Origin: Agrococcus sp. SGAir0287
GTDB taxonomy: Bacteria; Actinomycetota; Actinomycetes; Actinomycetales; Microbacteriaceae
Length of the DNA stretch: 64,000 nucleotides
Direction of reading: 5' to 3'
Assembly: GCF_005484985.1 (NCBI RefSeq)
Contig: NZ_CP027942.1
Coordinates: forward strand, 248,001-312,000
The position numbers and the translations under genes are program-made. A model generated the notes under the pieces. That model saw only the letters and a program-made list of their open reading frames with translations, did not search any database and had not been told where the DNA came from. How positions within the stretch are numbered: position 1 is the first letter of the stretch; every line of letters begins with the position of its first letter. Positions 2,541 through 63,174 of this stretch are shown here, piece by piece.

Positions 2541-3518
2541 GTGAGTCCCACGATCCGTCCGCGCAGGCTCCGACGCACCCCCGCCCTGCGAAGGCTGGTG
2601 GCCGAGACCCGCATCCACCCGAGCCAGCTCATCCTGCCGATGTTCGTGGCCGACGGCATCGACGAGCCGCGCCCCATCGGCAGCATGCCGGGCGTCGTGC
2701 AGCACACGATCGACTCCGCGAGCCGCGCCGTCGAGGAGGCGATCCAGGCGGGCGTCGGCGGCGTCATGCTCTTCGGCGTGCCGAAGGAGGAGGACAAGGA
2801 TGCGACGGGCTCGGCGGGCATCGACCCGGACGGCATCCTCAACCGGGCGACCGCGGCGCTCGACGAGCGCTTCGGCGACGACACGGTCATCCAGACCGAC
2901 CTGTGCCTCGACGAGTTCACCGACCACGGCCACTGCGGCGTGCTCGACGAGTGGGGCGGCATCGACAACGACGCGACGCTCGAGCGCTACGCCGAGATGG
3001 CGATCGCGCAGGTCGACGCGGGCTCGGAGATGGTCGGCCTCAGCGGCATGATGGACGGCCAGGTCGCGTTCGTGCGCGACGCGCTCGACGACGCAGGCTA
3101 CGAGGACGCAGCGATCCTCGCCTACGCGGCGAAGTACGCATCCGCCCTGTACGGTCCCTTCCGCGAGGCCGTCGGCTCGAGCCTGCAGGGCGACCGGCGC
3201 ACCTACCAGCAGGATCCGGCCAACGCGCGCGAGGGACTGCGCGAGGCGACCCTCGACGAGGCCGAGGGCGCCGACGTGCTCATGGTGAAGCCCGCGTCCT
3301 TCTACCTCGACGTGCTGCGCGACGTCGCCGACGAGGCGCAGGTGCCCGTGTGGGCGTACCAGGTCTCCGGCGAGTACGCGATGGTCGAGGCGGCGGCCGC
3401 GAACGGCTGGATCGACCGCGACCGGGCCATCGCGGAGTCGGTCACGTCGATCGTGCGCGCGGGTGCGGATGCCGTGCTCACCTACTGGGCGGTCGAGCTG
3501 GCCGTGTCGCTGCGCTGA
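2541..3518 (+). CDS. hemB: Delta-aminolevulinic acid dehydratase (porphobilinogen synthase)
   Basis: This cytosolic enzyme condenses two 5-aminolevulinate molecules to porphobilinogen in heme synthesis. The 325 residues cover the whole family. Lys198 (in [13 protein letters not shown]) and Lys250 (in MVKPASFY) are the two Schiff-base lysines. The metal loop reads [14 protein letters not shown]: Cys122 and Cys132 are kept but the middle position is Asp124, a mix of the zinc (Cys-Cys-Cys) and magnesium (Asp) types. The GTG start at 2541 follows a TACCCT box by 6 bases, so the mRNA is probably leaderless. hemL, the enzyme of the preceding step, lies 133 bp downstream. Confidence 0.97.
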
Positions 3519-3544
3519 CCGCCCCCGCCGACCGCATCCTTCTC

Positions 3545-3614
3545 GCGTTTCGCAGGCGATCATGGGGGTTCGAGGGAAGATACCCCTCGAGAGGCCGAAT
3601 CGCCTGCGAAACGC
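3545..3614. repeat. Solo copy of the 70 bp hairpin repeat also arrayed at 5.5-6.0 kb
   Basis: The outer arms GCGTTTCGCAGGCGAT (3545-3560) and ATCGCCTGCGAAACGC (3599-3614) are perfect reverse complements. An inner stem TCGAGGG/CCCTCGA surrounds the conserved core GGGAAGATACCCC. It lies between hemB and hemL. Because hemL has a Shine-Dalgarno and no obvious promoter box, this hairpin would sit in a hemB-hemL transcript if one exists, and could act as a processing site or attenuator. Confidence 0.9.
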
Positions 3615-3651
3615 ACATCACGACGACGCAGCAGACGAGCAGGGACCGAGC

Positions 3652-4986
3652 ATGACCGACACGACCGCCACCGACACGACCGAGACCACCAACGACGCCC
3701 TCTTCGACCGCGCGAGGGCCGCGATCCCCGGCGGCGTGAACTCGCCGGTGCGCGCGTTCGGCTCCGTCGGCGGCACGCCGCGGTTCATCCGCAGCGCCCG
3801 GGGTGCGTACGTGACCGACGTCGAGGGCGTCGAGCGCGTCGACCTCGTCGCGTCGTGGGGTCCGGCGCTGCTCGGCCACGCGCATCCGGCGATCGTGGAT
3901 GCGGTGCAGCAGGCGGCGTCGCGCGGCCTGTCGTTCGGCGCGCCGACCGGCGCCGAGGTCGAGCTCGCCGAGGAGATCACGCGTCGCGTGCCCATCGCCG
4001 AGCGCGTGCGCCTCGTGTCCACGGGCACGGAGGCGACAATGACGGCCATCCGCCTCGCGCGCGGCGCGACGGGTCGCGACCTGCTCGTGAAGTTCGACGG
4101 GCACTACCACGGGCACTCGGATGCGCTGCTCGTCGCGGCGGGCTCGGGCCTTGCGACGCTCGCGATGCCCGGGTCGTCGGGCATCCCCGACGCCGTCGCG
4201 GCGACGACGATCGTGCTGCCGTACGACGACGAGGCGGCCGTCGAGGCCGCATTCGCCGAGCACGGCGACCGCATCGCGGCGATCATCGTCGAGGCGGCGC
4301 CCGCGAACATCGGCCTCATCGCGCCGCGTCCGGGCTTCCACGCCTTCCTCGCGCGCACGGCGCATGCGCATGGCGCGCTGCTCATCAGCGACGAGGTGCT
4401 CACGGGCTTCCGCGTGCACCCCTCGGGCATGTGGGGCATCGAGGGCACGGCGGGCGACGAGGCGCCCGACATCCTCACGTTCGGCAAGGTCGTCGGCGGC
4501 GGCATGCCGCTCGCGGCGCTCGGCGGACGCCGCGAGGTCATGGAGCTCCTCGCCCCGCTCGGCCCCGTCTACCAGGCGGGCACGCTGTCGGGGAACCCGC
4601 TCGCCGTCGCCGCGGGCCTCACGCAGCTGCGCCTGGCCGACGACGCCGTCTACGCGCGCCTCGACGCCGTGGCGGACGCGATCACGGCCGGGCTGTCGGA
4701 TGCGCTCGCCGCCGAGGGCGTCGAGCACGTGATCCCGCGGGTCGGCAGCCTGTTCTCGCTCGCGTTCGCCGCGTCCGCGCCGCGCACGTACGACGACGCG
4801 AAGGCGCAGGCCGTCTTCCGCCACGCGCCCTTCTTCCACGCGATGCTCGACGGCGGCGTCGCGCTGCCGCCGAGCCTGTTCGAGTCGTGGTTCGTCACGG
4901 CGTCGCACGACGACGCGGCGATCGAGCGCGTGCTCGCGGCGCTCCCCGCTGCGGCCCGCGCCGCCGCTGCAGCCCGGCCGGCCTGA
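3652..4986 (+). CDS. hemL: Glutamate-1-semialdehyde 2,1-aminomutase
   Basis: This is a PLP enzyme of the C5 pathway that moves the amino group of glutamate-1-semialdehyde to give 5-aminolevulinate, the substrate of HemB. The 444 residues are full length. Visible motifs are [11 protein letters not shown] at 26-36, the cofactor loop STGTEATM at 123-130, Asp247 in the SDEV motif, and the Schiff-base Lys279 in [11 protein letters not shown]. The ATG at 3652 is preceded by AGGGA. The first 14 residues are Thr-rich and probably disordered. The hemB-hemL pairing is typical of heme gene clusters. Confidence 0.96.
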
Positions 4987-5071
4987 GCGCGGCGGGGCCG
5001 AGCGCGGCCGGCGGATCGGTCGCGGTCGTCATCGCGGCGCGGACGCTCGGACCACGCTCACGGCCAGGCTC

Positions 5072-5146
5072 GGGGAGATGTGCGCGCCAGCGGATGACCA
5101 TCGCACACGTGCGCGTGCCGCCTCGCTTGCGTGCACATCTCACCCC
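5072..5146. repeat. Imperfect inverted repeat in the gap after hemL
   Basis: GGGGAGATGTGC at 5072-5083 pairs with GCACATCTCACCCCC at 5133-5147, with one extra base in the right arm. The left arm continues as ATGTGCGCGCCAGC, which recurs on the complementary strand inside the repeat at 63022-63092, so the two are probably one family. The rest of the roughly 300 bp gap between hemL and the small gene at 5286 shows no convincing coding sequence. Confidence 0.6.
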
Positions 5147-5285
5147 CGTGGGTCGTCGACCGGCGCGATCGGCGTCGCTCGACCGGCCGCGGTGCTCCGT
5201 GGCCGACGCCGCGTTCCGAGCCGCACCGGGCCGCGCCCGTCAACCCCCGGGGCGCTCGGCCGGCGGCGGGCGTAGCGTCGCGTCC

Positions 5286-5507
5286 ATGAGTGCCGACGAC
5301 GCCACGCAGACCCAGACCCAGACCCAGACCGAGCCCGCCTCCGCCGACGCGCGTCCTCCGTTCGAGGACCACGACTTCGGCGGCGGCGCCGCGCCCGATC
5401 CGACGCCCGACCACGTCGAGCCGTACTCGTCGCGCTCCGACGAGACGCCGCGCACGGGCCCGGTCGACATCCCGGACCACGTGCAGCCGTACTCGTCGCG
5501 CGACTGA
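5286..5507 (+). CDS. Small acidic hypothetical protein with a repeated PDHVxPYSSR motif
   Basis: The product is 73 residues with no recognised family. A (TQ)n run at 7-14 is followed by a Pro/Asp-rich, probably unstructured chain in which PDHVEPYSSR (41-50) recurs as PDHVQPYSSR (63-72). A TAGCGT box ends 7 bases before the ATG, the same leaderless arrangement as other genes here, which supports expression from this start. The protein lacks a signal peptide and membrane helix. It runs into the hairpin array 47 bp downstream. Confidence 0.6.
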   Translation: MSADDATQTQTQTQTEPASADARPPFEDHDFGGGAAPDPTPDHVEPYSSRSDETPRTGPVDIPDHVQPYSSRD

Positions 5508-5554
5508 CCCGCCGCGCCGACGGCCGCACCAGCGGCCGGTCTGCGAGCCGCTGT

Positions 5555-5991
5555 GCGTCTCGCAGGCGATGCCGGTGGGTAGGGGGAAGATACCCCTTCG
5601 CCACCCCTGATCGCCTGCGAAACGCAACCACCCCGTGCGGGCGCTGCGCGTTCTGCAGGCGATTCCGCGTCTGGAGGGAAGATCCCCCTCGAGGCCCGGG
5701 ATCACCTGCGAGACGCAACGACTTCGCGCGGGCGCTGCGCGTTCTGCAGGCGATGCCGGTGGGCAGGGGGAAGATACCCCTCCGCCACCCGGGATCGCCT
5801 GCGAAACGCAACCACCCCGCGCGGGCGCTGCGCGTTCTGCAGGCGATTCCGCGTCTGGAGGGAAGATCCCCCTCGAGGCCCGGGATCGCCTGCGAAACGC
5901 AACGACTCCGCGCGGGCGCTGCGCGTTCTGCAGGCGATTCCGCCTCCAAAGGGAAGATCCCCCTCGAGATCCGGGATCGCCTGCGAAACGC
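5555..5991. repeat. Tandem array of five hairpin repeats, about 92 bp period
   Basis: Units lie at 5555-5625, 5648-5716, 5739-5809, 5832-5900 and 5923-5991. Each starts with a form of GCGTTCTGCAGGCGAT and ends with a form of ATCGCCTGCGAAACGC, so each folds on itself. Two stem types alternate (A, B, A, B, B): type A has GGTGGG facing CCACCC, type B has CTGGAGGG facing CCCCTCGAG. All keep the core GGGAAGAT(A/C)CCCC with AAGAT in the apical loop. Four 22 bp spacers also alternate. The array fills the space between convergent genes, where REP/BIME-type elements are commonly found. Confidence 0.92.
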
Positions 5992-6014
5992 GAACGGCCC
6001 AGGGCCGAGGCGCG

Positions 6015-6710
6015 TCAGAAGAGCGTCGGCCGCTTGCTCTGGATGCCCTTCATCGCGTCGTAGTCGAGCACGACGCAGCGGATGCCGCGGTCCTCGGCGA
6101 GCGTGCGCGCCTGCGGCGCGATCTCCTGGGCCGCGAAGATCCCGGACACGGGTGCGATGCGCGGGTCGCGGTTCATGAGCTCGAGGTATCGGGTGAGCTG
6201 CTCGACGCCGTCGATGCCGCCGCGCCGCTTGATCTCGACCGCGATCGTCGCGCCCGCCTCGTTGCGCGCCAGGATGTCGACGGGTCCGATCGGCGTCATG
6301 TACTCGCGGCGCCAGAGCTCGTAGCCCTCGCCGAGCAGCTCGATCTGGTCGGCGAGCAGCGCCTGCAGGTGCGACTCGACGCCGTCCTTCGTGAGCCCCG
6401 GGTCGACGCCCAGCTCGTGCGAGGAGTCGCTGTGCACCTCGTGCAGCCGCACGACGAGCGCGTCGCCGGTCTTCTGGTGCGTGACGGTCCACAGCTCGGT
6501 GACGCCCGCCTCGGCCTGGTCCGGGCTCGGCGCCGACGTCTCGATCGTGCACGGCGGCGACATCCAGTTGAGCGGCTTGTACGAGCCGCCGTCGGAGTGC
6601 ACGAGCAGCGACCCGTCGGCCTTCAGCATCAGCACGCGCGTGGCGAGCGGCAGATGGGCGGTGAGCCGCCCCGTGTAGTCGACGGAGCAGGTCGCGACGA
6701 CGAGCCTCAT
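6015..6710 (-). CDS. nucS: Mismatch-specific endonuclease NucS (EndoMS)
   Basis: NucS makes double-strand cuts at mismatches and is the basis of non-canonical mismatch repair in actinobacteria, which usually lack MutS and MutL. The 231 residues show an N-terminal beta-rich domain (1-110) and a RecB-like nuclease domain with Asp145 (GPVDIL), Glu159 and Lys161 (VEIKRR). The protein ends in PTLF, resembling the C-terminal sliding-clamp-binding tail of the family. GGAGGT precedes the ATG, which overlaps the TGA of the upstream MFS gene by four bases (ATGA), so the two are translationally coupled. Confidence 0.95.
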
Positions 6711-12504: not shown

Positions 12505-13446
12505 CCGGTCGAGGAGGCCGCAACCGCAGGCCGCAGCCGTCACGAGACCACGTGACTCGCCTGCTCGGCGCGACCACGCGCGTGGCCGGGCGGGTGCGGT
12601 GGTCGCGTGGTCTCGTGACGCGTGCTCGCCTGGCGGCTCGCGCGCTCCTCGACCGGCTGACAGGGCACGACTGCCGCACTGCCGGCCCTCGAGGTGCGAG
12701 CGGAGCGAGCCTCGAAAGGGTCCCGAGTATCGGCGTGCCTTCCACCAGCTGGTCGAGGAGGCCGCAGCCGAAGGCTGCAGCCGTCACGAGACCTCGTGAC
12801 TCGCCTGCTCGGCGCGACCGCGCGCGTGGCCGAGTGGGAGCGGCGGTCGCGTGGTCTCGTGACGCGTGCTCGCCTGGCGGCTCGCGCGCTCCTCGACCGG
12901 CTGACAGGGGCGACTGCCGCACTACCGGCCCTCGAGGTGCGAGCGAAGCGAGCCTCGAACGGGTCACCGCATCGACATGCCTCCCCCATCAGCTGGTCGA
13001 GGAGGCCGCAGCCGCAGGCTGCAGCCGTCACGAGACCACGTGACGTACCCGCTCGGCGCGACCACGCGCGTGGCCGGGCGGGAGCGGTGGTTGCGTGGTC
13101 TCGTGACGCGTGCTCGCCTGGTGGCTCGCGCGCTCCTCGACCAGCTGCGTGGGGCAGCCCGAGCCCCGGCCCCTGAGGTGCGAGCGAAGCGAGCCTCGAA
13201 GGGTCGACCGCATCGAGATGCGCCACCTCCAGCTGGTCGAGGAGGCCGCAGCCGCAGGCTGCAGCCGTCACGAGACCTCGTGACCCGCCTGCTCGGCGCG
13301 AACAGGCGCATGGCTGTGCGGGAGCGGCGGTCGCGTGGTCTCGTGACGCGTGCTCGCCTGGCGGCTCGCGCGCTCCTCGACCGGCTGCGTGGGACGGTCC
13401 CAGTACCGGCCCTTGAGGTGCGAGCGAAGCGAGCCTCGAAAGGGTC
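12505..13446. repeat. Four tandem copies of a 240 bp palindromic repeat
   Basis: Units begin at 12505, 12749, 12993 and 13233 (spacing 244, 244, 240). Each holds CTGGTCGAGGAGGCCGCAGC, then CGTCACGAGACC, a variable centre, then the reverse complements GGTCTCGTGACGCG and GCGCTCCTCGACCGGCTG. It closes with GCGAGCGAAGCGAGCCTCGA. One unit can thus form a hairpin of about 150 bases. No real gene was found in the roughly 1.1 kb between the MATE gene and the dehydrogenase; the long frames crossing it are Arg-rich artefacts of the repeat. The region could end transcription in both directions. Confidence 0.95.
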
Positions 13447-36971: not shown

Positions 36972-37088
36972 GGGTCTCGTGACGGCTGCAGCCTGCGGCT
37001 GCGGCCTCCTCGACCAGCTGGGAGGGGCGGCTCCCCTCCAGCTGGTCGAGGAGCGCGCGAGCGAGAGCGAGCACGCGTCACGAGACCC
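36972..37088. repeat. Solo 117 bp palindrome of the 240 bp repeat family
   Basis: GGGTCTCGTGACG at 36972-36984 is complementary to CGTCACGAGACCC at 37076-37088. Inside them CCTCCTCGACCAGCTGG faces CCAGCTGGTCGAGGAG around GGAGGGGCGGCTCCCCTCC. Both arms match half-units of the 12.5-13.4 kb array. Another half-arm (CCTCCTCGACCGGCTGG) lies near 37136. The 470 bp between the UMF1 gene and the antiporter regulator otherwise holds only the promoters. Confidence 0.9.
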
Positions 37089-38920: not shown

Positions 38921-39000
38921 CGATTGGTCACTCCTGTCGCTCGATCGGGCAGCAGTGGTTCGCGACACGCCGCCGAGTTCGCCACTGCTGCCCAATCGAT
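38921..39000 (+). repeat. 80 bp repeat, left copy of an inverted pair
   Basis: The repeat contains GGTCACTCCTGTCGCTCGAT, then CGGGCAGCAGTGGTTCGCGA, and closes with CCACTGCTGCCC, making an internal inverted repeat. Its reverse complement recurs at 39232-39310 with about 85% identity by eye. The two copies enclose the cupin remnant. Confidence 0.85.
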
Positions 39001-39231: not shown

Positions 39232-39310
39232 CCGATCGGGCAGTCGTGGTTCGCTCTGCGGCGTGTCGCGAGCCACTGCTGCCCGATCGAGCGACAGCAG
39301 TGACCGATCA
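39232..39310 (-). repeat. 80 bp repeat, right copy in inverted orientation
   Basis: Read on the minus strand it matches the copy at 38921-39000 over its whole length (GGTCACTGCTGTCGCTCGAT, then CGGGCAGCAGTGGCTCGCGA). It begins 2 bp after the stop of the cupin remnant. The remnant is thus bounded exactly by inverted repeats. Confidence 0.85.
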
Positions 39311-62891: not shown

Positions 62892-63021
62892 GCGGGCGGG
62901 CTTGCCGCAGCGTCGCTCACGCATCCATGCTGCGGATCGCGAGACGTGCACGTCAGCGGAGCGACGGGCCCGCATGCGGGATGCCGTGCCGCTCCCCAGC
63001 GGGTTGCGCTCGTCGCGAGCC

Positions 63022-63092
63022 GTGGAATGCGCGCGTGAGCGGGCACTCGTGACGCTGAGCGTCGCCGGTGCCTGCTGGCGCGCACATTCCAC
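63022..63092. repeat. 71 bp hairpin repeat upstream of clpB
   Basis: GTGGAATGCGCGC at 63022-63034 pairs with GCGCACATTCCAC at 63080-63092 with one mismatch; inside lie GGCAC/GGTGCC arms and a perfect GACGCT-G-AGCGTC. Its minus strand contains ATGTGCGCGCCAGC, shared with the inverted repeat at 5072-5146. Apart from this and the HAIR element, the 357 bp gap before clpB holds nothing recognised. Confidence 0.75.
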
Positions 63093-63174
63093 CGCGTGCG
63101 GCAGTGGGGCACGCCGTGGCGCACTCGGACCGGGCGCACGCATCCCCTGGCGCACGGATGCGCCCGGGAGTAGA

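Follow-up and report, generated by a model that had tools for sequence, protein, structure and literature searches.

The hairpins described in this work, first noticed in a 64,000-nucleotide stretch (the window) of the genome of the soil-type bacterium Agrococcus sp. SGAir0287 (G000; 3.08 Mb, of which the window covers 248001-312000), probably belong, as non-autonomous elements, to a REP-like family of dispersed repeats. Jointly with this, we favor a system of the REP/RAYT kind in which the dedicated partner of the hairpins is an unrelated DUF559 nuclease of about 290 amino acids that would spread or overwrite them. Both the nuclease activity of this protein and the mobility of the system are predictions from sequence comparison.

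A previous sequence-only reading of the window had described a hairpin array of five units at 5555..5991 with a solo copy at 3545-3614. The array is real, the unit order A-B-A-B-B with 22-nt linkers is as claimed (Table 1), and the proposed duplication of an A+B dimer agrees with a 184-bp A+B stretch that is present twice with 93% identity. The two stem versions also exist and differ in length too (71 nt in type A, 69 nt in type B). The loop, in turn, is less constant than had been claimed, as genome-wide it reads GGGA(A/G/C)(G/C)AT plus variants. The solo unit can be read as a hybrid with an A-like left half and a B-like right half. Among the neighboring genes, two are named hemB-like and nucS-like on the basis of their sequences; the small gene upstream of the array has a similar coding sequence at the same place in two related genomes (G007 and G008) and a longer one in other relatives, as judged by eye. 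No curated Rfam family matched the window above its gathering score.

Table 1. Hairpin units, linkers and adjoining genes in the window (positions in the window).
Feature	Position	Strand
Single hairpin unit (70 nt, hybrid of A and B) in the gap from the hemB-like to the hemL-like gene	3545..3614	+
Small gene (predicted) preceding the array and convergent with the gene that follows	5287..5507	+
Unit 1, type A, 71 nt	5555..5625	+
Linker, 22 nt	5626..5647	
Unit 2, type B, 69 nt	5648..5716	+
Linker, 22 nt	5717..5738	
Unit 3, type A, 71 nt	5739..5809	+
Linker, 22 nt	5810..5831	
Unit 4, type B, 69 nt	5832..5900	+
Linker, 22 nt	5901..5922	
Unit 5, type B, 69 nt	5923..5991	+
nucS-like gene, convergent, ends 23 nt from the last unit	6015..6710	-

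Other palindromes were noted in the window. Directly upstream of the small gene, at 5075-5141, lies an unrelated hairpin (GAGATGTGCGCG...CACATCTC), at whose place G007 and G008 carry other palindromes (by eye); another DUF559 gene of G008 (L336) has arms beginning in much the same way (AGATGTGC) on its flanks. The region 12538-13353 holds a ~244-bp tandem array of four palindromes, each about 93 bp long, whose arms read GTCACGAGACC and which are nested in larger CTGGTCGAGGAG/CTCCTCGACC arms, and further copies of the arm lie at 36973, 37077, 37174 and 47403; the arm search gave 12 matches with at most one mismatch, a number reached by 0 of 100 shuffles. Another palindrome (CGATCGGGCAG...CTGCCCGATCG) is present in two copies about 290 bp apart (38941-38999 and 39233-39289), and a 77-bp palindrome with GGAATGCGCGC-like arms at 63019-63095 possibly represents a further hairpin family.

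All six hairpin units of the window fold far better than their shuffled versions (z from -6.5 to -8.5; for each unit, 0 of 200 shuffles reached its value). Among 40 aligned units the arms, approximately GCGTTTCGCAGGCGAT, are near-invariant; the outer arms read approximately GCGTTTCGCAGGCGATC and its complement, and the center GAGGG-N7-CCCTC. Exactly 69 or 71 nt were found in 134 of the 138 units detected in G000, G007 and G008 within a range of 67-73 nt, and in 134 of 143 when 53-103 nt were allowed; the covariance model, in which insertions are allowed, also yields matches of 70-74 nt, one flanking base on each side being counted in. Neighboring units are separated by 20-23 nt in 35 of 45 pairs, 29 of these 35 being A+B, and by eye no conservation of the linker between loci was seen. 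The compensatory stem changes had been taken to indicate that a folded RNA or single-stranded DNA form is under selection, an argument that is supported only in part because type B alone exceeds the shuffles: its 65 cells with changes on both sides compare with a shuffle maximum of 40, whereas the 3 such cells of type A were reached by 92 of 500 shuffles. The covariation term of RNAalifold on the 40 units was 0.07. Template-switch correction of quasi-palindromes could also produce such compensatory stem changes. The near-constant unit length is a stronger sign of constraint than the covariation.

The sequence-only reading had asked for the repeat elsewhere in the genome and in relatives, and it is indeed not limited to one locus. 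A covariance model built from the 40 units located it at 47 places of G000 (94 matches on both strands), which form 25 clusters. Genes were predicted with a simple finder based on codon usage, and by its calls every one of the 25 clusters is intergenic, with 14 between convergent genes, 8 between tandem and 3 between divergent genes; among the 51 gaps between genes of the window, 11 are convergent, 29 tandem and 11 divergent, so that convergent sites are enriched (14/25 against 11/51; binomial p 0.0002). In the 8 tandem clusters, the orientation of the units agrees with that of the genes in 4 cases and is opposite to it in the other 4. At an E value of 0.01 the model matched 11 of the 24 genomes of the genus, although the matches in three of these (G001, G019 and G020) are weak or belong to another family. 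The eight genomes with the family are G000, G003, G007, G008, G009, G010, G015 and G023; matches on both strands are most numerous in G007 (129) and fewest in G015 and G023 (2); G003 has 9 places, G009 has 3, G015 and G023 have 1 each, and a palindrome pattern search found 7 units in G010. An exact pattern, searched across the genome collection, occurred in 24 stretches, all from Agrococcus (A. jejuensis and A. lahaulensis).

Strong, near-symmetric hairpins at the 3' ends of genes and between convergent gene pairs could be bidirectional terminators or 3' mRNA-stabilizing hairpins only, unconnected with any nuclease. We consider this very unlikely: no T-run follows the units (the two terminator-like sites in 3400-6100 sit on linker stems and not on units), conserved arms and a constant length are not needed for such a role, and the bracketing of one particular gene family by arms specific to each gene, described below, would not be expected.

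REP/BIME elements mobilized by RAYT proteins had been named as the nearest analogue of the hairpins, and the analogy holds as regards the dispersed intergenic palindromes, often in dimers, the presence of a gene between two copies and a repeat that is specific to an enzyme. It fails as regards a RAYT or other HUH partner. The profile PF01797 gave no match in G000 nor in any of the 24 genomes of the genus, some of which are incomplete, and matched 5 of 14 known genomes, E. coli included, when used as a control; a RAYT partner is thus rejected for the genus, barring a RAYT too diverged for PF01797 or placed in a missing genome part. REP palindromes carry a GTAG/GTGG head at their foot (PMC2817692), which is lacking in the 40 aligned units, and the units have 69-71 nt, not the 20-40 bp of REP units (PMC3733652). 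That our hairpins are REP/BIME elements moved by a RAYT is therefore extremely improbable, even though dispersed palindromes, dimers and a bracketed gene are all found in REP/RAYT systems (PMC2817692). As in REPINs, the family seems to be built on a dimer, here A-22-B, from which single units would be left over; the two subtypes that alternate here, with no RAYT found, set the hairpins apart from REPINs. CGTC-tagged REPs are also REP-like repeats without a RAYT, no dedicated transposase being known for them (PMC3733652), yet they differ in sequence, size and phyla.

A gene flanked by the same repeat does exist, and it is a DUF559/AbiEi-like gene instead of a RAYT gene. Comparing flanks between species, we found one gene bracketed by hairpin clusters in G000, G003, G007, G008 and G009; in G000 it encodes a protein of about 290 amino acids (G000:C1:766716-767588) and lies outside the window. 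In G003 the gene is frameshifted (L106), and this genome still carries at least 7 units. On checking, it proved not to be the sole gene between units: within the window, hemL and the small gene are likewise enclosed by neighboring clusters, and the same holds for further stretches. The DUF559 gene is distinguished by being bracketed in every one of the five species, including G009 and G003, which have few units. One of the other enclosed genes, of about 110 amino acids and presumably TfoX-like (by eye), has a single unit on either side, the two some 400 bp apart, in both G000 (L247, about 2197-2606) and G007 (L253).

Within the genus, a close copy of the gene (E value below 1e-80, a line drawn after seeing the results) is present in 6 genomes, 5 of which have units of the model family, against 3 of the 18 genomes without such a copy (Fisher p 0.007). 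In the sixth genome with a close copy, G019, hairpins with other arms lie beside the gene. The three exceptions, G010, G015 and G023, have units and no close copy; their repeats are orphans. Seven palindromes are likewise found in G080, which has no DUF559 match at an E value of 1e-12.

In the G000 protein, Pfam recognized DUF559 in the C-terminal part (E 7.7e-9; 35.8 bits against a cut-off of 20.6), whereas AbiEi_4 (14.9 bits, cut-off 25) and MTES_1575 remained below their cut-offs. A profile of six relatives matched PDB entries 3r3p ('mobile intron protein', E 7e-8), which we take to be I-Bth0305I of the EDxHD family, and 3hrl (4e-7). DUF559 proteins have been grouped among the EDxHD homing endonucleases (PMC9403480) and placed among Vsr-like nucleases (PMC12907096). 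The similarity to such proteins lies in the C-terminal domain; the known ones are either borne by introns or inteins or similar to enzymes of repair, whereas the gene described here is free-standing between hairpins and encodes an AbiEi-like N-terminus. An AlphaFold2 model of the protein obtained without an alignment had a mean pLDDT of 45 and was discarded.

AbiEi proteins bind inverted repeats. As the N-terminus is weakly AbiEi-like in both Pfam and PADLOC, the protein could be a winged-helix regulator or architectural factor of this type, the hairpins being its selected binding sites and the nuclease domain having no part in their spread. Near-invariant arms and a nearly fixed length would suit a binding site. 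We regard this explanation as unlikely since the sites lie mostly at 3' ends, over half of the clusters being convergent, where operators are not expected, since dispersed 70-bp copies in arrays require a copying step, and since the catalytic-looking residues E189, D216, E226, D228, H233 and D242 are invariant in the six aligned proteins.

We extended the analysis to the family Microbacteriaceae, where the profile matched 44 of 45 chosen genomes, namely all 24 of the genus and 21 others of the family, all 21 picked for an earlier palindrome match. Fifty genes from 34 genomes were taken, the best match in each of 30 genomes plus 20 further places, the latter chosen mostly down the match list before their flanks were inspected and with many more matches in existence. 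Shared-arm hairpins on both sides (at least 13 shared of 17 arm letters, 400-bp flanks, unit length 40-110) were found for 31 of the 50 genes against 3 of 125 control genes, all of these from Agrococcus stretches; with at least 12 shared letters, the figures are 31/50 and 7/125. Mismatched flanks taken from different genes with protein identity below 40% shared arms in 17 of 400 pairs, and mismatched flanks of paralogues in the same genome did so in 2 of 34. The genus alone, which was taken whole and not picked for palindromes, accounts for 15 paired genes of 28, and the family for 16 of 22. The 19 DUF559 genes without paired hairpins include the frameshifted gene of G003, scored as a miss because its flank was misplaced. 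A palindrome on a single flank is less telling, being present in 66 of 100 DUF559 flanks, which were slightly longer, and in 73 of 250 control flanks. We judge the association between gene and hairpins very likely to be real.

The units found beside these genes measure 47-109 nt (search range 40-110) and are palindromic along their whole length; left and right unit are equal in length in 24 of the 31 pairs, at median positions of 102 nt before the start of the match and 38 nt after its end. The arms differ by gene, reading for instance CCGGTTCTGTGGTCGGC in G017, TCTCAACGTGTGAGGTG in G003 and G014, CAGAAATGCAGGAGAT in genus g58 and GCGTTTCTCCGGAGG in G211, and paralogues within one genome mostly bear different arms, so that arms follow the gene and not the genome. 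Protein identity and arm similarity are correlated (Spearman 0.44, n = 31; not reached in any of 2000 permutations), a correlation to which shared descent contributes. Quite different arms (CAACGGAGCGGCTGGC) with a similar center, GAGGG-N7-CCCTC, were also observed at three loci (L096 and L102 in G019, L319 in G009), and the hairpins of L102 and L319 adjoin DUF559 genes.

Inverted arms and a compact unit of hairpin, gene and hairpin resemble a transposon with terminal repeats, and the hairpins together with the DUF559 gene could be ordinary MITEs and passengers of another transposase that recognizes the arms. This is, in our opinion, quite improbable. An arm search of G000 allowing 3 mismatches gave 150 places; the first 100 of these comprise, besides the arms of units, a single stray arm (2415406) and chance-like matches, and no insertion sequence with the same ends was among these 100; no transposase gene with such ends was seen in the stretches inspected either. 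Moreover, across the genomes, members of a single gene family are flanked by unrelated arms. ERIC, NEMIS and other palindromic MITEs are likewise intergenic palindromes of about this size; our hairpins differ from them in that a candidate partner gene exists, which carries the hairpins at either end.

Dispersed copies were also found in other genomes. The pattern GCAGGNGAT-N26..54-ATCNCCTGC occurs in 75 of 398 genomes of the family, against 3 for the reversed control. Twelve copies from eleven genomes were scored against the hairpins that adjoin the DUF559 genes of their own genome, with omission of the copy of G351, which flanks a gene. Nine of 11 dispersed copies score 17-22 of 24, and those of G039 and G211 score 15/24, the usual value for unrelated genes. 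Among these nine, the two copies of G192 and the one of G071 are alone in scoring higher with their own gene than with any gene from other genomes; for the remaining six, a gene of a relative that shares the arms scores equally or better. The hairpins of G039 (L133) are nested, an inner TGCAGG arm lying within an outer GCAGGGGATCC one; they have 67 nt, occur in five copies and do not match the DUF559 gene examined in that genome.

In the plasmid collection, relatives of the DUF559 gene are present in three records of Tsukamurella tyrosinosolvens, which belongs to another order, and in one of Actinomyces oris. The hairpin upstream of one of the Tsukamurella genes matched six further Tsukamurella records, one of them partially, and in part also one Streptomyces plasmid (E values from 6e-7 to 0.6). 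Five Tsukamurella copies were inspected, all from strain NCTC13231; each has 74 nt and retains the arms in slightly altered form. The neighboring genes are convergent at four of them and tandem at the fifth. The L339 gene of Tsukamurella has a clear hairpin on one side only, and no further copy was found of the hairpin beside a second gene (L341). Two of the Tsukamurella relatives are annotated by name as AbiEi antitoxins, which are part of type IV toxin-antitoxin systems. The likeness is a weak N-terminal one; here, this part is fused to a nuclease domain, and no AbiEii toxin is annotated beside the three Tsukamurella genes.

The comparison of orthologous sites gives some insight into the history of the hairpins. 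The stretch from the hemB-like to the nucS-like gene carries units in G000, G007 and G008 and none in 18 other genomes, two of which are without the nucS end, three further genomes of the genus being outside this comparison. At the site of the array, G007 and G008 have a single A+B dimer; therefore, the dimer came first and was expanded in G000. Reciprocal single-unit sites have well-conserved flanks and keep the position of the unit, the type having often changed: it is the same at 5 and different at 7 of the 12 sites shared by G007 and G008, the same at 2 and different at 4 between G000 and G007, and the same at 0 and different at 3 between G000 and G008, the hybrid unit being counted as different. 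Such type swaps reflect either in-place overwriting of hairpins or lineage-specific loss of one half of an ancestral dimer. Two candidate places for an empty site or a target duplication were seen among the compared sites, neither of them clean. The two units flanking the DUF559 gene are close to each other in G007 (2 differences of 71, a closeness reached by 2 of 435 other pairs); homogenization of such a pair is clear only there, not in G000 or G008, and we do not claim it. As an observation apart, G000 has an unrelated palindrome (window 37005-37054) where G007 (L249:6518) carries a type A unit.

Returning to the nuclease partner that we favor, the AbiEi-like N-terminal part would read the arm and the nuclease would cut or nick the hairpin, as a cruciform or in single-stranded DNA. 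Host repair would then copy or overwrite hairpins at 3' intergenic sites, probably as A+B dimers, of which single units would be remnants; at these sites, the hairpins may also serve as two-way transcript ends. That the predicted nuclease drives the spread or conversion of the hairpins seems to us slightly more probable than the contrary. This reading is weakest in that no insertion event was observed, that all control genes came from Agrococcus, and that some repeats are orphans. We give even chances to a broader proposal, namely that of a second, independently evolved REP-type system, widespread in Actinomycetota, made up of free-standing DUF559 nucleases with an AbiEi-like reader. Each of these would own a fixed-length hairpin family, be bracketed by its own hairpins and disperse or overwrite copies at convergent gene ends by cut-and-repair and not by HUH transposition, with nuclease and arm changing together and several pairs possible per genome.

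As far as we know, the RAYTs are the only enzyme family to partner REP-type repeats, where a partner is known at all. Some REP families are without a known partner (PMC3733652). No link between DUF559 and palindromic repeats was found in the titles, abstract openings and passages covered by our literature search, mainly of open-access papers. The partner proposed here has a DUF559 domain, of the PD-(D/E)XK kind, instead of the HUH tyrosine of RAYTs. The proposed system would count as a new kind because the enzyme class usually defines a mobile system and DUF559 is unrelated to the known REP partner. Should mobility fail, the paired architecture of gene and hairpins would still need explaining. 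If the proposal is true, a second and unrelated enzyme class would be involved and intragenomic hairpin families would have arisen more than once, a common domain of unknown function would gain a role, and each gene would offer a testable enzyme-substrate pair, whose candidate substrate can be read from the DNA beside it. Altogether, the hairpins that bracket a predicted nuclease gene suggest a second, unrelated route to hairpin-filled bacterial genomes.
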